From contig NZ_JBEPOH010000001.1 of NCBI RefSeq assembly GCF_040546685.1, positions 1,488,001-1,552,000 on the forward strand: a DNA stretch of 64,000 nt, given 5' to 3'. A program made the position numbers and the translations under genes. This stretch comes from Variovorax sp. OAS795. GTDB taxonomy: Bacteria > Pseudomonadota > Gammaproteobacteria > Burkholderiales > Burkholderiaceae_C. Positions 5,654-20,680 of this stretch are shown one piece after another. The notes below the pieces were generated by a model. It was not told where the DNA came from and searched no databases. It saw only the letters and a list, made by a program, of their open reading frames with translations. Position 1 is the stretch's first letter; every line of letters starts with the position of its first letter.

Positions 5654-6678
5654 GCGCCGTCCTGGAACCCCGCAAGGCGCAAGGCGGCGAGCCGCTCGTG
5701 GTCGCCCACGACCTGGCCCGCACTTTCGACGTCTCGCCGCCCTGGCTCAACCGCGTGCTCGAACGCAAGCCGCGCGTGCTGCTGCATGCCGTGGACGGCG
5801 TGAGCTTTTCCATCGAGCGCGGCAAGACGCTGGCGCTGGTCGGCGAATCGGGCTGCGGCAAGAGCACCGTGGCCCGCCTCTTGGTCGGCCTGTATGCGCC
5901 GACACGTGGCGGACTGCAGTTCGACGGCCAGGACGCGCACGCCGCGTTCAAGACCGCCGAAGGCCGCAAGCTGCGCCGCCGCATCCAGATGATCTTCCAG
6001 GACCCCTACGCGAGCCTCAACCCGCGCTGGATCGTCGAGGACATCATCGGCGAGCCGCTGCGCGAGCACGGCATCCTGCGCGGCAAGGCCGAACTGCGCG
6101 AGCGCGTGGGCGAGCTGCTCAAGTCCGTCGGCCTCTCGCCGCTGGACATGAGCAAGTACCCGCACCAGTTCTCTGGCGGCCAGCGCCAGCGCATCTCGAT
6201 TGCGCGCGCCCTTGCCACCGAGCCCGAGTTCCTGGTGTGCGACGAGCCGACCTCTGCGCTCGACGTGAGCGTGCAGGCGCAGGTGCTCAACATCATGAAG
6301 GACCTGCAGCGCCAGCGGGGCCTGACCTATCTCTTCATCTCGCACAACCTCGCGGTGGTGCGCCACGTGGCCGACCAGGTCGGCGTGATGTACCTGGGCC
6401 GGCTGGTCGAGGTGGCCGACAAGCAGAAGCTCTTTGCCGAGCCGCAGCATCCGTATACGCGCATGCTGCTCGACGCGATCCCGCAGATGAAGCACACCGG
6501 CCGCTCGCGCACGCCGGTGCAGGGCGAGGTGCCGAATCCGCTCGATCCGCCCACGGGCTGTGCGTTTCATCCGCGCTGCCCGCATGCGAATGCGCGCTGC
6601 TCGTCCGAGCGGCCGCAGCTCCTGGCCATCAAGGGCGTGCAGGTGGCCTGCCATGCGGTGGAAGAGGGCCGCATCTAG
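5650..6678 (+). CDS. Peptide-type ABC transporter ATPase (DppF-like)
   Basis: A 342-residue second ATPase of the importer. Walker [10 protein letters not shown], signature SGGQRQR, Walker [13 protein letters not shown] and the C-terminal [14 protein letters not shown] cluster are visible. It overlaps the preceding ATPase gene by four bases and ends the import operon proper; the next gene starts 56 nt downstream and could still be co-transcribed. The first 30 residues, before the ABC domain, are longer than usual and include [16 protein letters not shown], a feature found in DppF relatives that act with permeases of this type. Confidence 0.92.
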
Positions 6679-6734
6679 CCCAAGGTGTGCGCAAACGCAC
6701 CGACAGACACGCGGAGGCGGTTCAGAGTGCGGCC

Positions 6735-7667
6735 ATGACCATGAAGAAGAACACCAGCGAAGGCAGCCGCCAGCCGATCTCCTCGGCGCTCGGCCGGCGC
6801 GGCTTTCTCATGGGCTCGGCAGTCGGCGCAACGGCGACGCTGGCGTCCCTGTGTTCGTTGTCGCATGCCGCCGCGGGTGCGCCTTTTCAGCGGATGCCGG
6901 TCATCTTCATCGGCCACGGCTCGCCGATGAATGCGCTGGCCGACAACGCGTTCACGCGCCGGCTGTCCGCGTGGGGCAGGGAGCTGCCGCGCCCCGCGGC
7001 CATCCTCAGCGTTTCAGCGCACTGGCTGAGCCGCGGCGCCACCGGCGTGGGCATGCAGGAGCGGCCGAAGACGATCCACGACTTCGGCGGTTTCCCGCAG
7101 GCGCTGTTCGACATCGAATACCCGGCGCCGGGCCACCCCGCACTGGCACGCGACACCATCGGCGCGGTCAGGCAGGCGGCCGTGGTCGGCACCCAGCAAT
7201 GGGGCCTGGACCACGGCACCTGGACGGTGCTCAAGCACCTCTATCCGAAGGCCGACATTCCCGTTTTCCAGCTCAGCATCGACTACGACAAGCCGGCGGC
7301 TTTTCACTACGCCATCGGCCGCGACCTTGCGGCGTTGCGCGACAAGGGCGTGCTTGTGATGGGGACCGGCAACGTGGTGCACAACCTGCGCGCCACGGAT
7401 CGCGGCACGCCCGATGGCCTGATGGCCAGCCGGCCGTGGGCGCAGTCCTTCGACGATGCGGTGAAGGCCGCGCTCGCGGGCCGGGACGACCGGGCGCTGG
7501 TCGCCTACGAGAAGCTCGAGGGCGCCGCCACCGCGGTCGCCATGCCGGACCACTACTACCCGTTTCTCTACGCCCTCGGCGCCGCGGGTGCGGGCGAACG
7601 CGCGAAGACCGTCTACGAGGGCTTTCAGTCAGGCACGCTGAGCATGCGCTGCCTGCAGTTCGGCTGA
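6735..7667 (+). CDS. Tat-exported class III extradiol dioxygenase (DODA/YgiD-like)
   Basis: A 310-residue LigB-superfamily protein of the 4,5-DOPA extradiol dioxygenase type, which cleave catecholic rings using a non-haem metal. Probable metal ligands are seen in FIGHGSPMNAL, SVSAHWLSRG, DHGTWTVLKH and GTGNVVHNLR. The N-terminus has a twin-arginine signal: GRRGFLM followed by a hydrophobic stretch and an Ala-rich cleavage region around residue 45-50, predicting folded export to the periplasm. Starts at 6735 or 6741 are possible. It lies 56 nt after the peptide-importer ATPase and ends only 4 nt from the convergent zwf stop, with no terminator visible between them. The natural substrate is unknown. 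Confidence 0.85.
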   Translation: MTMKKNTSEGSRQPISSALGRRGFLMGSAVGATATLASLCSLSHAAAGAPFQRMPVIFIGHGSPMNALADNAFTRRLSAWGRELPRPAAILSVSAHWLSRGATGVGMQERPKTIHDFGGFPQALFDIEYPAPGHPALARDTIGAVRQAAVVGTQQWGLDHGTWTVLKHLYPKADIPVFQLSIDYDKPAAFHYAIGRDLAALRDKGVLVMGTGNVVHNLRATDRGTPDGLMASRPWAQSFDDAVKAALAGRDDRALVAYEKLEGAATAVAMPDHYYPFLYALGAAGAGERAKTVYEGFQSGTLSMRCLQFG

Positions 7668-7671
7668 GGCG

Positions 7672-9135
7672 CTACTGCTCCTCGCCCCACGAGAAGCCGT
7701 CGCGCGCAATCATCGCGCTCGATGCGCTCGGCCCCCAGGTGCCGGCGGCGTACGGTCGCGGCGCGCCGTCCGAGGCCCAGCTGTCGATCAGCGGCTCGAC
7801 CCAGCGCCAGGCTTCTTCCTGCTCGTCGCTGCGCACGAACAGGTTCAGCCGGCCGTCGATCACGTCGAGCAGCAGCCGTTCGTAGGCACCCACGCGTTCG
7901 GCGCCGAAGCGCTTGTCGAAGTCGAGGTCCAGCTGCACCGGCGCCAGCTGCGCGGCGCTGTGGCCGTTGCGCTGGCGGTTGTCCTGCGCCTGCGCAAGCA
8001 TGTGCAGCTCCAGGCCGTCCTTGGGCTGGAGGTTGATCACCAGCTTGTTGACCGCTCCCGAAGGCGCACGGTAGATCGCATGCGGCGTGGGCCTGAAGTT
8101 GACTTCGATGCGCGCATCGCGCGACGCCAGCCGCTTGCCGGTGCGGATGTAGAGCGGCACGCCGGCCCAGCGCCAGTTGGCGATTTCGGTGCGCAGCGCC
8201 ACGAAGGTCTCGGTGCGGCTTTCCGGGTCAACGCCGGGTTCGTCCCGGTAGCCCGGCACGCGCTCGCCGTAGGCCGTGCCGGCCACGTACTGGCCGCGGA
8301 TGGCGTGCAGCCCCAGCGTCTCGGGCGTCCAGGGCTTGAGCGCGCGCAGCACCTTGAGCTTCTCGTCGCGGATGGCATCGGCATGCGAGTTGATCGGCGG
8401 CTCCATGCCGATGGCGCAGACCAGTTGCAGCGCATGGTTCTGCACCATGTCGCGCAGCGCGCCGGTCTGGTCGTAGAAGGCCCCGCGCTTCTCGACGCCC
8501 AGGTCTTCGGCGATGGTGATCTGGATGTTGGCGATGTGCTCGCGGCGCCAGATCGGCTCGAACAGCGCATTGCCGAAACGCATCGCGAACAGGTTCTGCA
8601 CCGACGGCTTGCCCAGGTAGTGGTCGATGCGGAAGACCTGCTTCTCCTCGAACACCTTGCACACCGCGGCGTTGATCGCGCGGTTGGACGCCAGGTCGTG
8701 GCCCAGCGGCTTCTCGAGCACGATGCGGGTCGCCGGCCCGTTCAGGCCCGCGGCGGCGACCTGTTCCACCACCTGGGTGAAAAGCGCCGGCGCCGTCGCC
8801 ACGTACATCACCACCGTGTCCGCATTGCGCTGTTTGAGCAGGTCGGCAAGCCGCGCGTAGTCGGCCGGCTTGGACAAGTCCATGCGCAGGTAGTACAGCA
8901 TCGAGGCGAACTTCTCGAACTCTTCGGCCGAAGGGCGCTTGGCGCCTTCCACCGCGTTGAAGCGCGACTGGATCAGCTCGCGGTACTGGTCGTCCGAGAG
9001 GTCGTCCCGCGCCACGCCCACGATGCGTCCGTCTTTCGGCAGGCTGCCGTGCCTGAAGGCCTGGAACAGCGCAGGCATCAGCTTGCGCCATGCAAGATCG
9101 CCAGTACCGCCGAACAGAACGAGATCGAAGCTCAT
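7672..9135 (-). CDS. zwf: Glucose-6-phosphate 1-dehydrogenase
   Basis: A 487-residue enzyme that oxidises glucose 6-phosphate to 6-phosphogluconolactone with reduction of NADP(+), at the entry of the Entner-Doudoroff and oxidative pentose phosphate routes. The nucleotide-binding motif FGGTGDLAWRKL lies at residues 8-19, EKPLGHD at 141-147, and the substrate/catalytic signature RIDHYLGK at 169-176. I chose the ATG at 9135, preceded by AAAGGAA; an in-frame extension of 32 residues upstream has no family resemblance. It is divergent from the AfuA-like gene across 140 bp that contains a small inverted repeat GGTAC-TT-GTACC near 9186. Confidence 0.97.
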   Translation of the reverse strand: MSFDLVLFGGTGDLAWRKLMPALFQAFRHGSLPKDGRIVGVARDDLSDDQYRELIQSRFNAVEGAKRPSAEEFEKFASMLYYLRMDLSKPADYARLADLLKQRNADTVVMYVATAPALFTQVVEQVAAAGLNGPATRIVLEKPLGHDLASNRAINAAVCKVFEEKQVFRIDHYLGKPSVQNLFAMRFGNALFEPIWRREHIANIQITIAEDLGVEKRGAFYDQTGALRDMVQNHALQLVCAIGMEPPINSHADAIRDEKLKVLRALKPWTPETLGLHAIRGQYVAGTAYGERVPGYRDEPGVDPESRTETFVALRTEIANWRWAGVPLYIRTGKRLASRDARIEVNFRPTPHAIYRAPSGAVNKLVINLQPKDGLELHMLAQAQDNRQRNGHSAAQLAPVQLDLDFDKRFGAERVGAYERLLLDVIDGRLNLFVRSDEQEEAWRWVEPLIDSWASDGAPRPYAAGTWGPSASSAMIARDGFSWGEEQ

Positions 9136-9275
9136 GTGTCGAATTTCCTTTTGTCTTGGTGCCGAGTGGCCTGTTTCAACCGAATGGTACTTGTACCGAT
9201 TCATGAAACCTGTACGAAAGCTACGCTGCACCCCGGCCGGGAGGCCTATTTTTGTTTTCGAGGCGAGGTTTTCAC

Positions 9276-10289
9276 ATGAAGAAGCTTTTCACTGCAGCGG
9301 TCCTGGCGGGTTTGTCGGCCGCCGCATCGGCCCAGGGCACGGTCAACGTCATCTGCTCGGTCCAGGCCGAATGGTGCAACGTGATCGCCACCGTCTATGC
9401 GCGCACCACCGGGACCCGCATCAACATGTCGCTCAAGGGCTCGGGCGAGGCGCTGGCGCAGCTCATCGCCGAGAAGGACAACCCCAAGACCGACGTCTGG
9501 TTCGGCGGCACCGGCGACCCGCACCTGCAGGCAGCCGAGCAGGGCCTCACGCTCGAGTACAAGTCGCCCACCCTGGCGCAGCTTCACCCCTGGGCGCAGC
9601 AGCAGGCCAGGCAGTCGGGCTACAAGACCGTGGGCATCTACTCCGGCCCGCTGGGCTTCGGCTACAACCCCGAGCTGCTCGCCAAGAAGAAGCTGCCTGT
9701 TCCCAAGACCTGGTCCGACCTGCTCAAGCCCGAATACAAGGGCGACATCCAGGTGGCCAACCCCGCGTCCAGCGGCACCGCCTACACCATGATCGCCACG
9801 CTGGTGCAGCTCATGGGCGAGGACAAGGCCTTCGACTACCTGAAGGCATTGCACAAGAATGTGGGCCAGTACACCCGCTCGGGCACCGGCCCCATCAAGG
9901 CGGTGGCGCGCGGCGAGACGGCTGTTTCGATCAGCTTCGTGCATGACGGCCCGGGCGAGAAGATGCAGGGCTTTCCGGTCGAGACCATCACGCCCAGCGA
10001 CGGCACCGGCGCCGAGATCGGCTCCATGAGCATCATCAAGGGCGCCCGCAACCTCGAGGCCGCCAAGAAGTTCTACGAATGGGCCCTGACGCCGAGCGCG
10101 CAGGAGCTGGGCGCCGCCAACAAGCAGTTCCAGCTGCCCAGCAACACGACGGCCAAGCTCGATCCGCGCATCCCGGACTTCAAGAAGATCAAGTTCATCA
10201 ACTACGACTACGCCAAGTACGGTGCCAGCGCCGAGCGCCGGCGCCTGATCGCGCGCTGGGAAAAAGACGTCAACTCGCTGCCGCGCTAA
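9276..10289 (+). CDS. ABC substrate-binding protein, AfuA/FbpA-like (sugar phosphate or iron)
   Basis: A 337-residue periplasmic binding protein with a signal peptide (residues 1-19, ending ASAQ). Families of this type are routinely annotated as ferric-iron binding, but the paired tyrosines of FbpA are not evident. The protein instead resembles AfuA, known to bind hexose phosphates: note DVWFGGTGDPH (residues 73-83), ANPASSGTAYT (161-171), the His-Asp pair 223-224 and Glu 247. The gene is divergent from zwf and close to tal and pgi, which fits a sugar-phosphate ligand. Start chosen at 9276 for the signal peptide; eight extra in-frame residues upstream are possible. The next gene's GTG directly abuts the stop. 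Confidence 0.8.
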   Translation: MKKLFTAAVLAGLSAAASAQGTVNVICSVQAEWCNVIATVYARTTGTRINMSLKGSGEALAQLIAEKDNPKTDVWFGGTGDPHLQAAEQGLTLEYKSPTLAQLHPWAQQQARQSGYKTVGIYSGPLGFGYNPELLAKKKLPVPKTWSDLLKPEYKGDIQVANPASSGTAYTMIATLVQLMGEDKAFDYLKALHKNVGQYTRSGTGPIKAVARGETAVSISFVHDGPGEKMQGFPVETITPSDGTGAEIGSMSIIKGARNLEAAKKFYEWALTPSAQELGAANKQFQLPSNTTAKLDPRIPDFKKIKFINYDYAKYGASAERRRLIARWEKDVNSLPR

Positions 10290-12551
10290 GTGGCCACCCC
10301 TGTCGCCGGCGCCGGGCCGGCCAACCCGGCCGCCGCGGCAGCGGCCCGGCGCTCGCAGCGCTGGATCTGGGCGTGGGTGGCGCTGGGCTTCGCGTCCTAC
10401 CTGCTGCTCCCTTGGTATGCGATCCAGGATGCGACGTGGTACGAGGCCATTCCGCAGGTGTTCGGGCAGGCCGAGGGTGCCAACGGCCTGATGCAGGCAG
10501 CCACGCAAGGGCGCAGCTGGCTCTTCATCGGCCTCGTGGGTCTGGCGATGTGCGCCATCGGTGCCTCGCTGCCGGCCGGCCGGGCGCAGGGGCGCTGGCT
10601 GCTGGCAGGCGGCGCGATCGGCGCCATCGGGCTTGCCGTAGCGGGCTTCACCATCGGTGCGCGCGGCTGGAGCTTCGCGGCGCTCAACACGCAATTCGGC
10701 GAACTGGCCCTCAACCAGTTCGGCATCGGCGCAGGCGGCTTCGTGGCGCTCACCGCACTCACGCTGCTCGCGGCCTTCGGCATCGCGCGGCTCGGGCTCT
10801 TCAAGGGCGACCTTTTCGTGGCTGCGGCGGTCATCGGCTGCGGCGTGCTGATGGCGCTGTTCATCGCCTATCCGGTGAGCAAGGCGCTGGCCGGCGCGTT
10901 CTTCGACGAAGACGGGCGATGGTCGATCACGGCGTTTGCCGCGCGCGTCTTCACCGAGCGCATCTGGGGGCTGGGCTGCATTGCGGGCGGTGTGCGCTGC
11001 GGCGTGGCCTGGAACACGCTGGTGCTGGCCTTGCTCACGGCCGCCGGCACCACCTTTCTCGGCACGCTGATGGCGCTCATGGCCGAGCGCGGCAGCAAGC
11101 GCGGGCAGGGTGCCTTGCGGGTGCTCGCGCTGCTGCCGATCATCACGCCGCCGTTCGTGGTGGGCCTCGGGCTCATCCTGCTGTTCGGCCGCGCGGGGAT
11201 CGTCAACCAGCTGCTCGAAAACGTCTTCGGCATCGAGCCGACGCGCTGGTTCTACGGCATGCCCGGCGTGCTGGTGGCGCAGCTTTTCGCGTTCACGCCC
11301 ATCGCCTTCATGATCATGCGCGGCGTGGTGCAGGGCATCGCCCCGAGCCTCGAAGAAGCCGCGCAGATGCTGCGCGCGGACCGGCGCCGCACTTTCTTCA
11401 CCATCACGCTGCCGCTCCTGAAGCCCGGCCTCGCCAATGCCTTCCTGGTCGGCTTCATCGAGAGCATTGCGGACTTCGGCAACCCGGTGGTGGTCGGCGG
11501 CCAGTTCTCCGTGCTCTCGACCGACATCTTCTTTGCCATCGTCGGCGCGCAGTACGACCAGGGCCGCGCGGCTTCGCTGGCCTGGGTGCTGACGATCTTC
11601 GCTCTGGGTGTTTTCGCGCTTCAGCGCGGTGTGCTGGGCAAGCAGAACTACACCACCGTGAGCGGCAAGGGCGACGCGGGCATTGCCATGGCGCTGCCCG
11701 ACGGCGTGCGCCGCACCATCCATTGCATCGCGCTCCCGTGGATCGCGTTCACCGCGGTGGTCTACCTGTTCGCCTTCGCGGGCGGCTTCGTGCAGACCTG
11801 GGGCCGCGACTACACCTTCACGCTCAACCATTTCAAGAGTGCATTCGCGCTCGAGTGGGGACAGTTCGGCCTGGTGTGGGCCGGCACCGCATGGAACTCG
11901 CTCATCACCACGCTCAAGCTCGCGGGCATCTCGGCGCCGATCACAGCGGCGCTCGGCCTGCTCATTGCCTGGCTGCTGGCGCGCAACGAGTTCAAGGGGC
12001 AGGGCGTGTTCGAGTTCGGCGCGCTGCTGGCCTTTGCCATCCCGGGCACGGTGCTGGGCGTGAGCTACATCCTGGCCTTCAATGTGCCGCCGTTCGAGCT
12101 CACGGGCACCGGCCTCATCATCGTGCTGTGCTTCATGTTCCGCAACCTGCCGGTGGGCGTGCGCGCCGGCACGGCGGCCTTCAAGCAACTCGACCGGTCC
12201 CTGGACGAAGCCTCGCTGATGCTGCGTGCCTCCACGTCGCAGACGCTCTTCAAGGTGGTGCTGCCGCTGCTGAAGCCGGCGCTGGTCGCTGCGCTGGTCT
12301 ACAGCTTCGTGCGTGCCATGACCACGGTGAGCGCGGTGATCTTCCTGGTCACGGCCGAGAACGAACTCGCCACCACCTACATCATCGGCCGCGTCGGCAA
12401 CGGCGACTACGGCATCGCGCTGGCCTACTGCACGGTGCTCATGATCCTGATGTCGCTGGCCATCGCGCTGGTGCAGTGGGTGGTGGGAGAGCGCAAGCTG
12501 GGGCGGCGCAAGGCGGGCGTGCCGATGGTGGCCGCGCCCGTGGTGCATTGA
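10290..12551 (+). CDS. Fused double-domain ABC permease (AfuB-like)
   Basis: A 753-residue inner-membrane permease containing two permease domains in one chain: EAA-type loops occur near residue 355 (EEAAQMLRADRRRTFFTITLPLLKP, split here as motif only) and near 639 (DEASLMLRAS). The first roughly 230 residues add about five extra hydrophobic helices absent from the shorter FbpB/SfuB permeases (about 500-550 aa), making the length closer to AfuB. The GTG start directly follows the binding-protein stop codon, implying coupled translation. It would form the whole membrane channel together with the downstream ATPase. Confidence 0.85.
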   Translation: MATPVAGAGPANPAAAAAARRSQRWIWAWVALGFASYLLLPWYAIQDATWYEAIPQVFGQAEGANGLMQAATQGRSWLFIGLVGLAMCAIGASLPAGRAQGRWLLAGGAIGAIGLAVAGFTIGARGWSFAALNTQFGELALNQFGIGAGGFVALTALTLLAAFGIARLGLFKGDLFVAAAVIGCGVLMALFIAYPVSKALAGAFFDEDGRWSITAFAARVFTERIWGLGCIAGGVRCGVAWNTLVLALLTAAGTTFLGTLMALMAERGSKRGQGALRVLALLPIITPPFVVGLGLILLFGRAGIVNQLLENVFGIEPTRWFYGMPGVLVAQLFAFTPIAFMIMRGVVQGIAPSLEEAAQMLRADRRRTFFTITLPLLKPGLANAFLVGFIESIADFGNPVVVGGQFSVLSTDIFFAIVGAQYDQGRAASLAWVLTIFALGVFALQRGVLGKQNYTTVSGKGDAGIAMALPDGVRRTIHCIALPWIAFTAVVYLFAFAGGFVQTWGRDYTFTLNHFKSAFALEWGQFGLVWAGTAWNSLITTLKLAGISAPITAALGLLIAWLLARNEFKGQGVFEFGALLAFAIPGTVLGVSYILAFNVPPFELTGTGLIIVLCFMFRNLPVGVRAGTAAFKQLDRSLDEASLMLRASTSQTLFKVVLPLLKPALVAALVYSFVRAMTTVSAVIFLVTAENELATTYIIGRVGNGDYGIALAYCTVLMILMSLAIALVQWVVGERKLGRRKAGVPMVAAPVVH

Positions 12552-12564
12552 CCGGAAAGAACAC

Positions 12565-13617
<1,053 letters not shown>

Positions 13618-13623
13618 AACAAT
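13618..13623 (+). promoter_or_regulatory. -10-like hexamer for a leaderless HAD message
   Basis: AACAAT ends six bases before the ATG at 13630, and no Shine-Dalgarno sequence precedes that ATG. This matches the spacing seen at tal, hemA, mscK-like, ubiE, ubiJ and folE and would place the transcript start at or next to the start codon. The hexamer overlaps the stop of the ATPase gene, so read-through from the operon is also possible. Confidence 0.35.
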
Positions 13624-13629
13624 GGCGCC

Positions 13630-14271
13630 ATGAATGTGGTTTTCGATCTTGGCGCCGTGCTCCTGGCCTGGGAGCCCACCCGGCTGGTGCAGGCCCATCT
13701 TCCCGAACACGCGCCCACTGAGCTTGCCGCGGCGGCGCTGGGCCGTGCGCTGTTCCACCATGACGACTGGCTGTGCTTCGACTGCGGCACCCGCTCGCTC
13801 GAAGACGCCATTGCGCGCATGTCGCAACGGCTGTCGCTGCCGGCTGCGCGGCTTGGCGACATGCTCGGGGACCTGGGCGAGCGCCTCGAGGCGATTCCCG
13901 TCACGCTCGAACTGCTGCAGGGGCTGTTCGCGCGGCGCGATGCCGGCGAGGCGCTGCGCCTCTACTACCTCTCGAACATGCCTTCGCCCTATGCGCGTGC
14001 CATCGAGCGGCGGCACGGCTTCATGCGTCGATTCGACGGCGGTGTCTTCTCCGGGGACGTGAAGTTCATCAAGCCGAATCGCGAGATCTACGAACTGCTG
14101 GCGGTGCGCCATGCGCTCGATCCGCAGCAGACGGTGTTCATCGACGACTCGGCCGCCAACGTGGAGGCGGCGCGCGCCTTCGGCTGGCACGCCATCCACT
14201 GCACGCACCCGGCCGCGCTGGCCGCGCAGCTGGGCCGCTACCTGCCGTCCGCCGCGGCTATTGGCCGGTGA
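13630..14271 (+). CDS. HAD-superfamily sugar-phosphate phosphatase (YihX-like)
   Basis: A 213-residue HAD hydrolase. Motif I is FDLGAVL with nucleophile Asp6; the glycine replacing the usual second aspartate (DLG instead of DxD) is also found in YihX, a glucose-1-phosphate phosphatase. Motif II is LSNM (Ser115), motif III Lys148 in KPNREIYELL, and motif IV FIDDSAANVEAA (Asp172-Asp173). It starts 12 nt after the AfuC-like ATPase, so an activity on imported or central sugar phosphates is a reasonable inference, not shown by sequence. Its 3' end overlaps the convergent lipocalin gene by 14 bp. Confidence 0.85.
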   Translation: MNVVFDLGAVLLAWEPTRLVQAHLPEHAPTELAAAALGRALFHHDDWLCFDCGTRSLEDAIARMSQRLSLPAARLGDMLGDLGERLEAIPVTLELLQGLFARRDAGEALRLYYLSNMPSPYARAIERRHGFMRRFDGGVFSGDVKFIKPNREIYELLAVRHALDPQQTVFIDDSAANVEAARAFGWHAIHCTHPAALAAQLGRYLPSAAAIGR

Positions 14272-14935
14272 GCACCACCTTCGCAGTGTCGAAGCCGAGG
14301 CTGGCGGCGTAGTCCAGCTCCGCCTGCAGCGCGGCATCTTCCAGTCGCGGTTCACGCGAAAGAACCCACAGGTACTCACGGTCTGGCGTGCCGACCAGCG
14401 ACACCTGGTAGTCGCGGTCGAGCTTCAGGATCCAGTAGTCTCCCCACACCATCGGCAGCCAGGAGAGCCATGAAGGCGCAAAGCGCACTTCGAGCCGGCC
14501 CGCGCCGGGCTGGCCCGCGACCGGCACCACGCGCGCCGTGCCCACGGCCTCGTCGAAGTTGCCGTCGGGCCGCACGCAGCGGTTGCGCACCTGCACGGTG
14601 CCGTCGGGCTGGGGAATGTATTCGGCGGTGACAGGGCCGGTGCACTGCTTCTGGAAGCGGTTGGGCAAGCGGGCCTGCTCGTGCCAGGTGCCGGCATAGC
14701 GCTGGATGTCGACCGGCGCCACCACCTGCAGCGGCGCCCGCATCAGCGGCGCGCCGTCGGCGGGACCTGCGAGTTGCGCACGCGCGGTGCGCCCCGCGCC
14801 CAGGGCGAGCCAGGTTGCCACGCCGCCGACGACAAAGGCGGTTGCCAGGGTGCCGATGGCGGCGCTGGTGCGGCGGTCGTCGAAAGGAGCGCGGCGGGCG
14901 GCAGCGGGCGCGGCGGTGCGGCGTCGAAGGGACAT
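14258..14935 (-). CDS. Lipocalin family protein (Blc-like) with N-terminal membrane anchor
   Basis: A 225-residue protein: a basic N-terminus, one hydrophobic segment (about residues 26-47) that could be a signal anchor, and a lipocalin domain beginning with the hallmark YAGTWHEQARLPNRFQ (Gly82-Thr-Trp84). Bacterial lipocalins bind lipophilic molecules and act at the envelope. E. coli Blc is a lipoprotein; here no lipobox cysteine is seen, so membrane anchoring is by the helix if at all. I chose the ATG at 14935, preceded by AGGAG ten bases upstream; the frame extends further to 14995. Convergent with the HAD gene, with 14 bp of 3' overlap. Confidence 0.85.
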   Translation of the reverse strand: MSLRRRTAAPAAARRAPFDDRRTSAAIGTLATAFVVGGVATWLALGAGRTARAQLAGPADGAPLMRAPLQVVAPVDIQRYAGTWHEQARLPNRFQKQCTGPVTAEYIPQPDGTVQVRNRCVRPDGNFDEAVGTARVVPVAGQPGAGRLEVRFAPSWLSWLPMVWGDYWILKLDRDYQVSLVGTPDREYLWVLSREPRLEDAALQAELDYAASLGFDTAKVVLTGQ

Positions 14936-15166
14936 GGGAAGGGCACTCCTGTAGTCGAAAGCATCAAGGCGAGACGCTGCAGGGTAGCCCGCCACCGGGG
15001 CGGGGCGCAGTCAGCGGCGGACCACAGCAGTTGTAGGGCAGCGGGGCGGGTGCATGCCCCTGCCGCTTACAGGCCGACGCAGCACGGTCGAAAAGCCGTG
15101 CTACGGTGCGCATGAAAACATCGGCCCCAGCGCAACTGCGTGCAGGACTTGTGATCACCCGCACAG

Positions 15167-15172
15167 AATAAT
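15167..15172 (+). promoter_or_regulatory. -10-like hexamer for a leaderless tal message
   Basis: AATAAT lies seven bases before the tal ATG at 15180, with no Shine-Dalgarno sequence in between. A small palindrome GTGATCAC (15151-15158) lies just upstream and could be an operator. The 244-bp gap 14936-15179 between the lipocalin and tal starts holds otherwise only GC-rich sequence with no gene I can support. Confidence 0.4.
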
Positions 15173-15179
15173 CTTCGAC

Positions 15180-16139
15180 ATGAATCAACTCGATGCTCTC
15201 CGCCAATGGACCACCGTGGTCGCCGACACCGGCGACTTCAAGCAACTCAGCATTTCCAGGCCGCAGGACGCGACCACCAACCCCTCGCTCATCCTGAAGG
15301 CGGTGCAGAAGCCCGAATACCGGCCGCTGCTCGACGAAGCCGTCAAGAAGCATGCGGGCAAGCCGCTGGACGAGGTCATCGACCGCCTGCTGGTGCGCTT
15401 CGGTGCCGAGATCCTCTCGATCATTCCCGGCCGCGTCTCCACCGAGGTCGACGCCCGCCTCTCGTTCGACACCGCCGCCACCATTGCGCGCGGCGAGCGC
15501 ATCGTGGCGCTCTACAAGGCCGAAGGCATCGACACCCAGAAGCGCCTGCTGATCAAGGTGGCCTCCACGTGGGAAGGCATCCAGGCGGCGCGTGCGCTCG
15601 AGCAGAAGGGCATCCGCACCAACCTGACGCTGCTGTTCTCGTTCGCGCAGGCCGTGGCCTGTGCCGAGGCCGGCGTGCAGCTCATCTCGCCCTTCGTGGG
15701 CCGCATCTACGACTGGTACAAGAAGTCGGCCGGCGCCAAGTGGGACGAAGCCGCGAGCGCGGGCCCGAACGACCCGGGCGTGAAGTCGGTGCGCGAGATC
15801 TTCAACTACTACAAGCAGCACGGCATCAAGACCGAGGTGATGGGCGCGAGCTTCCGCAACGTGGGGCAGATCCAGGCCCTGGCCGGCTGCGACCTGCTGA
15901 CCATCAGCCCCGAGCTCCTGGCCGAGCTGGCCGCCAGCGACGCGCCGCTCGACCACGCGCTCGACGCTGGCAAGGCCGCGGCAGCGGCCACCACGCAGAA
16001 GCTGGGCTACGACGAGCCGGGCTTCCGCTTCGCGCTCAACGAAGATGCCATGGCCACCGAGAAGCTGGCCGAAGGCATCCGCGCCTTCGCGGCCGATGCC
16101 GTGAAGCTCGAAAAACTCATGCAGGAAAGCGGCAAGTAG
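15180..16139 (+). CDS. tal: Transaldolase (TalB type)
   Basis: A 319-residue cytoplasmic enzyme of the non-oxidative pentose phosphate pathway, transferring a dihydroxyacetone unit from sedoheptulose 7-phosphate to glyceraldehyde 3-phosphate. DATTNPSL is at residues 30-37, and the Schiff-base lysine is Lys126 in [11 protein letters not shown]; length matches TalB (about 317). The start at 15180 gives the canonical [20 protein letters not shown]; the frame is open upstream but without similarity. pgi begins 2 nt after its stop, forming a tal-pgi operon. A second, FSA-type transaldolase is encoded at 25149-25820. Confidence 0.97.
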
Positions 16140-16141
16140 AC

Positions 16142-17707
16142 ATGGCCATGACCCTTCGCTGCGACCGCGCGCCCGCCTGGGCGCAACTGCGCAGCTACTT
16201 CGAGACCGCAGGCCGCCAGTTCGACGTGCGCCACGCCTTCGTGGACGACGCGGGACGCTTCGAGCGCTTCAGCCAGGAGGCGCCGCATGTGTTTGCCGAC
16301 CTGTCGAAGAACCTGGTCGACATGCGCATCGAGGAGCTGCTGCTCACGCTGGCCAAGGAGTGCGGCCTGGAGGCGCACCGCGACGCCATGTTTGCCGGCG
16401 AGCACATCAACAACACCGAAGACCGCGCCGTGCTGCACACGCTGCTGCGCGCACCGGCCGATGCGCCCGTGGGCAAGACCGCGGCCGAACTGCGCGAGGT
16501 GCACGCCACGCTCGATGCGATGCTGGCCTATGCCGAGAAGGTGCGCGGCGACCACACGATCACCGACGTGGTCAACATCGGCATCGGCGGCTCCGACCTG
16601 GGACCGCAGATGGCGGTGCTCGCGCTGGCCGAGTTTGCCGCACCGGGCAAGCGCTTCCATTTCGTCTCGAACGTCGATGGCCACGAACTGGCCGGCGTGC
16701 TGCGGGACCTGGCGCCCGAGCACACGCTGTTCCTCATCGCGTCCAAGACCTTCACCACGGCCGAGACGATGGCGAACGCGCACTCGGCCAGGCGCTGGTA
16801 CGCGCAGTCGGGCGGCACCGACATCGCGGGCCACTTCGCCGCGCTCACCACCAACGTCGAGGCAGCGAAGCAGTTCGGCATCGACACCACCTTCGGCTTC
16901 TGGGACTGGGTGGGCGGGCGCTATTCGCTGTGGTCGGCCATCGGCCTGCCGATCGCGCTGGCCATCGGGACCGACGGATTCCGCCGGCTGCTGGCGGGTG
17001 CGCACGCCATGGACGAGCACTTCCGCACCGCGCCGCTGGCGCAGAACCTGCCGGTGCGGCTCGGGCTGCTCGACGTCTGGTACCGCAACTTCCACGGCTT
17101 CACCAGCCGCGGCATTGCGCCGTACCACAGCGCGTTGAGGCGCCTGCCGGCCTACCTGCAGCAGCTGGAGATGGAGAGCAACGGCAAGCAGGTCGATGCG
17201 AGCGGCGCCCCGCTGCCCGCAGGCCTTGGCACCTCGCCGGTGCTCTGGGGTGAGCCCGGCACCAACGGCCAGCACGCCTACTTCCAGATGCTGCACCAGG
17301 GCACCGACGTGATCCCGCTCGAATTCGTGGCGGTGCGCGATGCCGCGCACGACCTGGAAGGCCACCACCCCAAGCTGCTGGCCAATGCGCTCGCGCAGGC
17401 GCAGGCTCTGATGGTCGGCAAGCTGGATGCTGGCGGCCACAAGAACTTTCCGGGCAACCGGCCGAGCACGTTCTTCGTGTTCGAGAAGCTCACGCCCGAG
17501 TCGCTCGGCGCATTCCTCGCGCTGTACGAGCACCGCGTGTTCACCAGCGGCGCGCTGTGGGGCATCAACAGTTTCGACCAGTGGGGCGTGGAACTGGGCA
17601 AGGTGCTCGCGAAAGACATCGAGCCGCGGCTCGCGTCCGGCGACATCATGGGGCTCGACGCCTCGACCGCGGGGCTGCTGCAGCGCCTGGGCGGCAGCCA
17701 GGCCTGA
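16142..17707 (+). CDS. pgi: Glucose-6-phosphate isomerase
   Basis: A 521-residue cytoplasmic enzyme interconverting glucose 6-phosphate and fructose 6-phosphate. The conserved IGIGGSDLGPQM segment (about residue 145) binds the phosphate; FGFWDWVGGRYSLWSAIG and QMLHQGTDVIPLEF are PGI signatures, and SFDQWGVELGK near the C-terminus is also typical. The start is ATG at 16142, 2 nt after the tal stop; the ribosome site AGGAAAG lies inside the end of tal, so translation is probably coupled. With zwf and tal it covers the hexose-phosphate node. A strong 11-bp hairpin follows the stop. Confidence 0.97.
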   Translation: MAMTLRCDRAPAWAQLRSYFETAGRQFDVRHAFVDDAGRFERFSQEAPHVFADLSKNLVDMRIEELLLTLAKECGLEAHRDAMFAGEHINNTEDRAVLHTLLRAPADAPVGKTAAELREVHATLDAMLAYAEKVRGDHTITDVVNIGIGGSDLGPQMAVLALAEFAAPGKRFHFVSNVDGHELAGVLRDLAPEHTLFLIASKTFTTAETMANAHSARRWYAQSGGTDIAGHFAALTTNVEAAKQFGIDTTFGFWDWVGGRYSLWSAIGLPIALAIGTDGFRRLLAGAHAMDEHFRTAPLAQNLPVRLGLLDVWYRNFHGFTSRGIAPYHSALRRLPAYLQQLEMESNGKQVDASGAPLPAGLGTSPVLWGEPGTNGQHAYFQMLHQGTDVIPLEFVAVRDAAHDLEGHHPKLLANALAQAQALMVGKLDAGGHKNFPGNRPSTFFVFEKLTPESLGAFLALYEHRVFTSGALWGINSFDQWGVELGKVLAKDIEPRLASGDIMGLDASTAGLLQRLGGSQA

Positions 17708-18375: not shown

Positions 18376-19686
18376 ATGAAGCGTTTTCTGAAAGCGGGCC
18401 TCGTCCTCGCACTCGCCGGCACGGGGCTCGTGTCCCAGGCCGCCACCGAACTCGTGATTGCCACCGTCAACAACGGCCACATGATCGAGATGCAGAAGCT
18501 CACGCCCTTCTTCGAGAAAGCCAATCCCGACATCAAGCTCAAGTGGGTGACCCTGGAAGAAGGCACGCTGCGCCAGCGCGTGACGACCGACATCGCCACC
18601 AAGGGCGGCCAGTTCGACGTGATGACCATCGGCCTGTACGAAGCACCGATCTGGTCGAAGAAAGGCTGGCTCCAGCCGATCGCCACCGACGCCGCCTACG
18701 ATGCCGACGACCTGCTGCCCGCCATCCGCGGCGGCCTGTCCTACGAAGGCAAGCTCTACGCCGCGCCGTTCTACGGCGAGAGCTCGATGCTCATGTACCG
18801 CAAGGACCTGGCGGACAAGGCCGGCTTCCAGATGCCCGAGCAGCCCACCTGGGCCCAGGTGAAGGAACTGGCCGGCAAGATCCACGACCCGAAGGCCGGC
18901 GTGTACGGCATGTGCCTGCGCGGCAAGCCCGGCTGGGGCGACAACATGGCGTTTTTGACCACGCTGGTCAACACCAACGGCGGCCAGTGGTTCGACATGC
19001 AGTGGAAGCCGCAGATCGACACCAAGCCGTGGAAGGACGCGATCAACTTCTACGTCGACCTGATGAAGTCCTACGGCCCGCCCGGTGCCTCGGCCAACAG
19101 CTTCAACGAGAACCTCGCTCTCTTCAACGAAGGCAAGTGCGGCATGTGGGTGGATGCGACCATCGCGGCCTCGTTCATCAGCGACCCGAAGCAGTCGAAG
19201 GTGGCCGACAAGGTCGCGTTCGCACAAGCCCCGGTGGCCGTCACGCCCAAGGGTGCCAACTGGCTGTGGACCTGGAACCTGGCCATTCCCGCCAGCTCGA
19301 CCAAGGGCGCGGCCGCGCAGACCTTCGTGAAGTGGGCCACCTCCAAGGACTACGTGAACCTGGTCGCCAAGGAGCATGGCTGGGCCACGGTGCCCACCGG
19401 CACGCGCAAGTCGACCTATGCGAACCCGGAGTTCCAGAAGGTCGCCAAGTTCGCCGCGGCCGAGAAGAAGGCGATCGACACCGCCAACCTCAGCGACAGC
19501 ACCTTGCCCAAGTCGCCCTACGTGGGCGTGCAGTACGCGGCCATTCCGGAATTCCAAGCCATCGGCGTGGCGGTCGGCCAGCAGATGAGCGCGGCGCTGT
19601 CGGGCAAGGTCACGGTCGACCAGGCGCTGAAGACATCGCAGACGGCGGCCGAGCGGGAGATGAAGAAGGCCGGGTACTACAAGTAG
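18376..19686 (+). CDS. mtlE: Polyol ABC transporter substrate-binding protein (MtlE/SmoE-like)
   Basis: A 436-residue periplasmic binding protein of the extracellular solute-binding family 1. The signal peptide covers residues 1-22 (ending VSQA). The sequence style (ELVIATVNNGHMIEMQKLTPFFEK, FYGESSMLMYRKDL) is that of the mannitol/sorbitol proteins MtlE and SmoE. TAGGAG precedes the ATG at 18376. It is the first gene of the polyol operon and is followed by a pair of stem-loops before the first permease gene. Mannitol, sorbitol and arabitol are the likely ligands, from operon content. Confidence 0.88.
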   Translation: MKRFLKAGLVLALAGTGLVSQAATELVIATVNNGHMIEMQKLTPFFEKANPDIKLKWVTLEEGTLRQRVTTDIATKGGQFDVMTIGLYEAPIWSKKGWLQPIATDAAYDADDLLPAIRGGLSYEGKLYAAPFYGESSMLMYRKDLADKAGFQMPEQPTWAQVKELAGKIHDPKAGVYGMCLRGKPGWGDNMAFLTTLVNTNGGQWFDMQWKPQIDTKPWKDAINFYVDLMKSYGPPGASANSFNENLALFNEGKCGMWVDATIAASFISDPKQSKVADKVAFAQAPVAVTPKGANWLWTWNLAIPASSTKGAAAQTFVKWATSKDYVNLVAKEHGWATVPTGTRKSTYANPEFQKVAKFAAAEKKAIDTANLSDSTLPKSPYVGVQYAAIPEFQAIGVAVGQQMSAALSGKVTVDQALKTSQTAAEREMKKAGYYK

Positions 19687-19698
19687 AAAGCTGTCTTT

Positions 19699-19798
19699 CC
19701 CCTCTCCCGCTCGGGGAGAGGGCAGGGTGAGGGGGCGGCGTGCCCATGACAGCCGCCGCATGCCCTCACCCCAACCCTCTCCCGCAAGCGGGAGAGGG
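19699..19798. repeat. REP-like double stem-loop between mtlE and mtlF
   Basis: Two related hairpins face each other: CCCTCTCCC/GGGAGAGGG with loop GCTCG (19700-19722) and a perfect 11-bp CCCTCTCCCGC/GCGGGAGAGGG (19775-19798). Between them AGGGTGAGGGG and CCCTCACCCC form a further inverted pair. This paired CCCTCTCCC architecture is typical of dispersed bacterial REP-like elements. Located directly after the binding-protein gene, it may stabilise that message or reduce read-through. Confidence 0.7.
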
Positions 19799-19822
19799 GG
19801 CAACAGCCTGAGAGGAACCAAG

Positions 19823-20680
19823 ATGAACCGACTCCTGCCCCGGGCCCTGATGGCGCCCGCCGTGCTCACGCTCCTCCTGTGGATGATCGTGCCGCTCGCG
19901 ATGACGTTGTACTTCTCGCTCGTGAACTACAACCTCATGCAGCCCGGCGAGCGCACGTTCGCGGGCATCGAGAACTTTCACTATTTCGTCACCGACCCGG
20001 ACTTCTGGCCCGCCACCTGGAACACGCTGATGCTGATCGGCAGCGTGATCGGCATCACGGTGGTGTTCGGCGTGCTGCTCGCGCTGCTGGTGAACGAGCC
20101 CTTCCCGGGCCGCGGCATCGTGCGGGTGCTGCTCATCTCGCCGTTCTTCGTCATGCCCGCGGTCAACGCGCTGCTTTGGAAGCACATGATGATGAACCCC
20201 ATCTACGGCATCCTGGCCGACGTGTGGCGCTTCTTCGGCGCGCAGCCTGTCGACTGGCTCACCGATGTGCCCCTGTTCTCGGTGATCGTCATGGTGGCCT
20301 GGCAGTGGCTGCCCTTCGCGTGCCTGATCTTCATCACCTCGCTGCAGTCGCTCGACCGCGAGCAGATGGAGGCCGCGCGCATGGACGGCGCCAGCGCGTT
20401 CCAGCGCTTCTTCTACCTGACCATTCCACACCTCGGCCGGCCGATGGCGGTGGTGATCATGATCGAGATGATCTTCCTGCTCAGCGTGTTCGCCGAGATC
20501 GCCATCACCACCAATGGCGGGCCGGGCAACGAGAGCACCAACATGACCTACCTGATCTTCAAGCAGTCGCTGATGAACTTCGACGTGGGCGTGGCTTCGG
20601 CCGGTGCGCTGTTCGCGGTGGTGCTGGCGAACATCGTGGCGGTGTTCCTCATCCGCATCATCGGCAAGAACCTGGACTGA
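19823..20680 (+). CDS. mtlF: Polyol ABC transporter permease (MtlF/SmoF-like)
   Basis: A 285-residue inner-membrane permease of the MalF/UgpA class with about six helices; the EAA loop is EQMEAARMDGASAFQRFFYLTIPHLGRP (only the core EAARMDGA is diagnostic). The start at 19823 follows AGAGGAA; the frame continues upstream across the repeat, which is not plausible coding sequence. It pairs with the MtlG-like permease encoded 10 nt downstream. Confidence 0.9.
   Translation: MNRLLPRALMAPAVLTLLLWMIVPLAMTLYFSLVNYNLMQPGERTFAGIENFHYFVTDPDFWPATWNTLMLIGSVIGITVVFGVLLALLVNEPFPGRGIVRVLLISPFFVMPAVNALLWKHMMMNPIYGILADVWRFFGAQPVDWLTDVPLFSVIVMVAWQWLPFACLIFITSLQSLDREQMEAARMDGASAFQRFFYLTIPHLGRPMAVVIMIEMIFLLSVFAEIAITTNGGPGNESTNMTYLIFKQSLMNFDVGVASAGALFAVVLANIVAVFLIRIIGKNLD

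Follow-up and report, generated by a model that had tools for sequence, protein, structure and literature searches.

We analysed a stretch of 64,000 nucleotides from Variovorax sp. OAS795 (hereafter the window; contig C1:1488001-1552000, 5.27 Mb, one of two contigs), in which a three-gene ATP-binding cassette (ABC) transporter operon lies among genes of sugar-phosphate metabolism. The operon (9276-13617) encodes, on the plus strand, an afuA-like periplasmic binding protein predicted to bind hexose and heptose phosphates (9276-10289, 337 aa), an afuB-like fused permease (10290-12551, GTG start, 753 aa) and an afuC-like ATPase with a TOBE domain (12565-13617, 350 aa; PF00005 and PF08402), spaced by 0 and 13 bp. 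Its divergent partner on the minus strand, 140 bp away, is zwf (7672-9135; TIGR00871, 544.4 bits, cut-off 400.6), and tal (15180-16139; TIGR00874, 441.2 bits, cut-off 396.2) and pgi (16142-17707; NF001211, 704.5 bits, cut-off 492) follow downstream on the plus strand, 2 bp apart. Zwf (glucose-6-phosphate dehydrogenase) consumes glucose 6-phosphate (G6P), Tal (transaldolase) acts on sedoheptulose 7-phosphate (S7P) and fructose 6-phosphate (F6P), and Pgi (glucose-6-phosphate isomerase) acts on G6P and F6P. Gene calls bore out the gene order, spacing and permease length given in the original prediction, which had been made from the letters alone, as well as a HAD phosphatase gene starting 12 bp after the ATPase gene. 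The closest named locus is that of Variovorax paradoxus DS1452, with 99% identity for both the binding protein and Zwf.

The family scan placed zwf, tal and pgi above curated NCBIfam cut-offs, and all three transporter proteins below the cut-offs among the families that it reported. The expectation that such an operon would be labelled as iron uptake was correct for one source: among 120 listed rows, JGI names the binding protein 'iron(III) transport system substrate-binding protein', and NCBI uses the generic 'ABC transporter substrate-binding protein'. A ferric iron importer would also draw on the shared superfamily fold and on the ATPase's top NCBIfam match, a ferric model that it matches below cut-off (368.5 of 496 bits). 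Adjacent iron-ligating tyrosines are the motif of FbpA, for which PDB chain titles mention Y195A and Y196A mutants. No Tyr-Tyr dipeptide occurs in the 337 aa of the window's binding protein, as had been predicted, and its identity to the ferric binding proteins FbpA and HitA is 16-20%. By sequence and structure it instead groups with AfuA, its sugar pocket is intact and sugar-phosphate enzymes adjoin its gene, which makes iron a very improbable substrate.

In a comparison of the binding-protein model with PDB chains (VIA-align), the closest fold was that of ligand-bound AfuA. The binding protein agrees with AfuA of Actinobacillus pleuropneumoniae at 17 of 19 ligand-contact positions (S28, G55, S56, G57, G78, T79, Y122, S166, G167, T168, S202, G203, F221, H223, D224, E247 and Q286), the two exceptions being Q30 (AfuA T11) and T204 (AfuA I186). 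The predicted residues H223, D224 and E247 are where they were said to be, and they correspond to the sugar-coordinating triad H205, D206 and E229 of AfuA; S56 and T168 correspond to its phosphate contacts S37 and T150. All five AfuA residues that have been mutagenised are preserved. The same comparison bears on import of pyridoxal 5'-phosphate (PLP, vitamin B6), as by P5PA (PDB 6wce; PMC8427247), which shares the fold and the phosphate end of the pocket and binds PLP without equivalents of D206 and E229. P5PA has alanine in place of both D224 and E247 and shares 12 of the 19 contacts with AfuA, against 17 for the window protein; the latter has D and E at these positions and is 42% identical to P5PA, where more than 65% would be expected of a P5PA protein. 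PMC8427247 reports P5PA motifs from Pasteurellaceae alone, and we regard a PLP importer as scarcely credible here. Import of 2-aminoethylphosphonate is more improbable still: PhnS2, PhnU2 and PhnT2 are among the top NCBIfam matches of the three proteins, but all lie below cut-off (PhnS2, TIGR03261, 209.6 of 392.75 bits; PhnU2, 268.7 of 593.25; PhnT2, 352 of 457.7).

The permease and ATPase likewise follow the AfuABC plan of one fused two-domain permease and a single ATPase in the operon. The permease is built of two BPD_transp_1 halves, each with an EAA loop (residues ~356 and ~640), preceded by ~240 extra N-terminal residues with four spans predicted from hydropathy, and it is the only AfuB match in its own genome at E 1e-20. 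The ATPase carries a Walker A motif (GPSGCGKT), LSGGQQQR and a Walker B motif. An AfuB-like permease had been predicted partly from its size; the fused architecture holds, but size is a weak argument, and the permease frame at a locus whose binding protein is 80% identical to AfuA (L184) is 704 aa. At that locus, queries for zwf, tal, pgi and the HAD gene found no match within 17 kb. AfuABC of A. pleuropneumoniae (PMC4546632) thus shares the fold, the 17 contacts, the fused permease, the single ATPase and the order of the three genes with the window operon; it differs in sequence (46% identity for the binding protein), in contacts 11 and 186, and in that the window cassette lies beside zwf and tal-pgi.

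To describe how often this arrangement recurs, neighbours with identities above thresholds of 45-50% were tallied at the best 80 of at least 561 confirmed loci in named genomes (Variovorax, Ramlibacter, Caenimonas, Rhodoferax, Polaromonas, Pseudacidovorax, Rubrivivax and others). A divergent zwf lies at most 2.5 kb from the binding-protein gene in 65 of these 80 close loci, 54 of the 69 testable ones have tal and/or pgi downstream in the same orientation, and at least one of zwf and tal/pgi is present in 67 of the 80. Among 150 genomes drawn evenly from the family, 29 have the binding protein with at least 66% identity; linkage in this sample was assessed by comparing two tables by eye. In 16 of the 29, zwf lies divergently beside the main gene or its tandem copy (the tandem copy sits between zwf and the main gene in G103 and G144), and eight of the remaining 13 loci adjoin tal and/or pgi (L150, L151, L152, L153, L154, L156, L157 and L161). 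Furthermore, afuABC is beside pgi in three genomes without a zwf match at E 1e-100 (G188, G089 and G094). In a sample of 276 genomes of the class, A. pleuropneumoniae AfuA found matches at E 1e-65 in six, the window's own genome among them.

Together, nearest relatives, pocket residues, structural model and recurring linkage support the original proposal that the operon imports sugar phosphates and not iron. We infer, with a probability of roughly 0.85, that the operon encodes an AfuABC-type ABC importer of cyclic hexose and heptose phosphates (G6P, F6P and probably S7P). Several observations weigh against this assignment. The binding protein is only 46% identical to AfuA, while P5PA, at 53%, binds another ligand. 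In each of the 80 close loci, Q replaces T11 and T replaces I186 of AfuA, and the ligand range may therefore differ from that of AfuA; VcA0625 (PDB 8x1a, titled as a G6P binding protein) has T and V at contacts 11 and 186, where the window protein has Q and T, and a farther relative (L123) also has V at position 186. With regard to linkage, zwf is absent in 12 of the 74 close loci with enough upstream sequence, tal/pgi in 15 of the 69 testable ones, and the transporter is away from zwf, tal and pgi in five of the 29 sampled genomes (G108, G105, G125, G174 and G132), of which G125 and G132 show changed pockets, FQDEH and FGDET respectively. Neighbourhood counts are also not phylogenetically independent, and most of them could go back to a single ancestral insertion followed by descent. 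Alternatively, the operon might encode a sugar-phosphate-type importer with this fold whose true ligand is another phosphorylated metabolite, such as mannose 6-phosphate, 6-phosphogluconate or a plant or soil aldose phosphate. The two departing contacts speak for this, as does the variation of ring contacts in related binding proteins (FHEE tandem copies, FFGE orphans and G36S groups), but none of the five mutagenised residues is changed and the enzymes encoded alongside fit the ligands measured for AfuA, and we consider such a ligand unlikely.

If the operon is an importer of G6P, F6P and S7P, the periplasmic protein would hold the phosphate on the side of S56 and T168 and the sugar ring by H223, D224 and E247, capturing its ligands at nanomolar affinity by analogy with AfuABC. 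On the same analogy, the fused permease and ATPase would import them at the expense of ATP with the phosphate kept on the sugar, and the imported sugar phosphates could enter metabolism directly, G6P through Zwf or Pgi, F6P through Pgi or Tal and S7P through Tal.

The transporter type was already known, a 'ferric' AfuABC having been published in 2015 as an importer of G6P, F6P and S7P together with a motif search that gave 121 hits in alpha- and betaproteobacteria (PMC4546632), and PMC8427247 gives the AfuA pattern in 468 sequences from outside the Pasteurellaceae. With the family known and its motif surveyed in 2015, the find is less surprising, and the informative part is the seat of the transporter within a gene cluster that uses the same sugars. 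Linkage of AfuABC to zwf in Variovorax, Comamonadaceae or Burkholderia is not described in the titles and abstract beginnings that searches of open-access papers listed, which is no proof of its absence from print. The gene order independently backs the in vitro ligand set of AfuA, since the enzymes encoded on either side, three in all, act on AfuA's three main ligands. The finding also gives a new label to proteins that are named as iron transporters in some sources, and opens sugar-phosphate scavenging by free-living bacteria to tests in harmless strains, the published work consulted here being concerned with pathogens.

For comparison, 20 cassette-free zwf loci were hand-picked from the 113 family-sample genomes with a zwf match; of the 20 genomes so chosen, G105, G125, G132 and G174 have afuABC elsewhere, and G083, G121 and G193 have a 52-58% relative elsewhere. 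In all 20, zwf faces tal, which is followed by pgi. One of them (L140) has an afuB-like fragment (~6543-6950, 41% over 139 residues) and a lipocalin gene between zwf and tal, the fragment probably being a remnant of a lost cassette. The zwf-tal-pgi order and this remnant therefore lead us to the reading that the cassette was inserted into a zwf|tal-pgi locus that already existed, and was sometimes lost or moved afterwards. Its arrival between zwf and tal-pgi, along with its adoption of the divergent regulatory region, would date back to an ancestor that part of the Comamonadaceae/Rubrivivax group shares.

We examined this region in the window and in 60 loci with a zwf|afuA gap of 60-400 bp (61 intergenics). 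An operator-like pseudo-palindrome, ATGGTACTTGTACCGAT (9184-9200, plus strand), occurs with at most three mismatches in 34 of the 61 and is unique in its own genome at that tolerance. It is a Variovorax word, distinct from a second operator-like word, TGTAACTTAGTTTCA, which at the same tolerance is found in the zwf-tal gap of 17 of the 20 cassette-free loci and in the zwf-afuA gap of 22 of the 61. The two words never occur together in the 61 intergenics, and neither is present in five. Both were derived from the very set of sequences used for counting them; a control of 1830 mononucleotide shuffles gave 3 and 1 matches for TGTAACTTAGTTTCA and ATGGTACTTGTACCGAT. Since TGTAACTTAGTTTCA is common to cassette-free and cassette loci and ATGGTACTTGTACCGAT is found in Variovorax, the cassette probably took over the promoter region of the locus, which was later rewired, and co-regulation with zwf may be expected. 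Control of TGTAACTTAGTTTCA by HexR was considered because the word resembles a HexR site, but the genome's two RpiR-family regulators adjoin genes of D-amino-acid type and isoaspartyl-peptidase type (by eye, from their translations), and we make no HexR claim. The afuA leader also contains a GGCC-GNRA-GGCC hairpin with a T run (9235-9253, plus strand), a candidate leader hairpin or attenuator; a regular expression found it in 27 of the 61 intergenics, 20-40 nt upstream of afuA and with a GNRA loop in most cases.

Between the ATPase gene and tal lie two lineage-specific neighbours, a HAD-IA phosphatase gene (13630-14271, plus strand, 213 aa; TIGR01509, 56.4 bits, cut-off 29.4) and, convergent to it, a Blc-type lipocalin gene (14258-14995, minus strand; PF08212, 142.4 bits) inside the 908 bp between the HAD gene and tal. 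The phosphatase had been called YihX-like and part of the transporter module. It does belong to the HAD family, but its likeness to YihX is weak (34.5 bits for the glucose-1-phosphatase model, whose cut-off is 295). The expected recurrence of a zwf-afu-HAD linkage was found for zwf. HAD, at 45% identity or more, directly follows afuC (or afuA, in L062) in 31 of the best 80 loci, 30 of them titled Variovorax and one a metagenome-assembled genome. A HAD relative lies beside or after pgi in seven of the 20 cassette-free loci. The HAD gene thus associates with tal-pgi and not with the transporter, and its contact with afuC, nearly confined to Variovorax, is therefore a lineage detail.

Phosphatases also occur near distant AfuABC relatives. 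At ten loci with 49-58% binding proteins (L163, L164, L166, L167 and L186-L191; one to four neighbours scanned each), an inositol-monophosphatase-family and/or HAD phosphatase was among the scanned neighbours at seven, and none was found at L188, L190 and L191, where one neighbour was scanned per locus. Their recurrence fits general import of phosphorylated sugar. Separately, response-regulator genes adjoin AfuABC relatives in another family (L190 6697-7440 and L191 6608-7339), possibly as part of a sugar-phosphate two-component system.

The genome also contains an orphan paralogue of the binding protein (C1:192145-193125, minus strand; L118 9143-10309), 51% identical, located between htpG-like and aqpZ-like genes (by eye) with no permease alongside. 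The paralogue recurs in the genus, and because F and G stand in for H and D in its pocket (FFGE, with E retained), it probably binds another ligand. A second binding-protein gene, adjoining afuA in tandem or following directly on afuC, is present in L082 (~8946, FHEE), L092 (~8973, FHEE), L095 (~2112, FHNS) and L085 (~14413, FFGE), the last being an orphan-type copy immediately after afuC; such genes would give several binding proteins per permease. Of the 20 sampled genomes that have a 49-54% match, 17 contain the main protein as well (Fisher p 4e-12, uncorrected for kinship; pockets checked in part of the loci). Two genomes with a paralogue but no AfuB at E 1e-60 count against the paralogue needing AfuBC, G166 (100% complete, FFGE in L168) and G018 (89% complete, pocket not inspected). 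We would tentatively raise, as a possibility that we hold to be doubtful, a Comamonadaceae hub in which one AfuBC permease in the pentose-phosphate locus serves several binding proteins whose ring pockets have been re-tuned (HDE, tandem HEE and orphan FFGE), by which soil and rhizosphere bacteria would scavenge diverse phosphorylated sugars with the phosphate kept.

Contig-end loci aside, a binding protein without an adjacent permease occurs in two of the best 80 loci, L062 and L069. In L062 (Variovorax ZS18.2.2), the permease and ATPase are gone between afuA and the HAD gene, and the genome has no permease above 31% identity. The left-over binding protein (10001-11008) has Asp where the phosphate site otherwise has its conserved Gly38, the sole case in the best 80, and a branch length of 0.10 versus 0 to 0.032 for the nearest rows of the tree (rows selected by hand). 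This is what relaxed constraint on a transporter-less binding protein would look like, in a single case. The L069 genome has a 70% permease elsewhere, with one stop in the match, plus a 50% permease. A general role of the binding protein as a lone sensor was rejected, given the altered pocket in L062 and the permeases elsewhere in L069. An explanation of the importer by a missing glucokinase was also rejected, as PF02685 was not found in the genome, yet ROK-family and PFK genes are present. Finally, another sugar-type ABC importer (binding protein and permease, by eye) lies at 18376-20680 of the window, beginning 0.7 kb past pgi.
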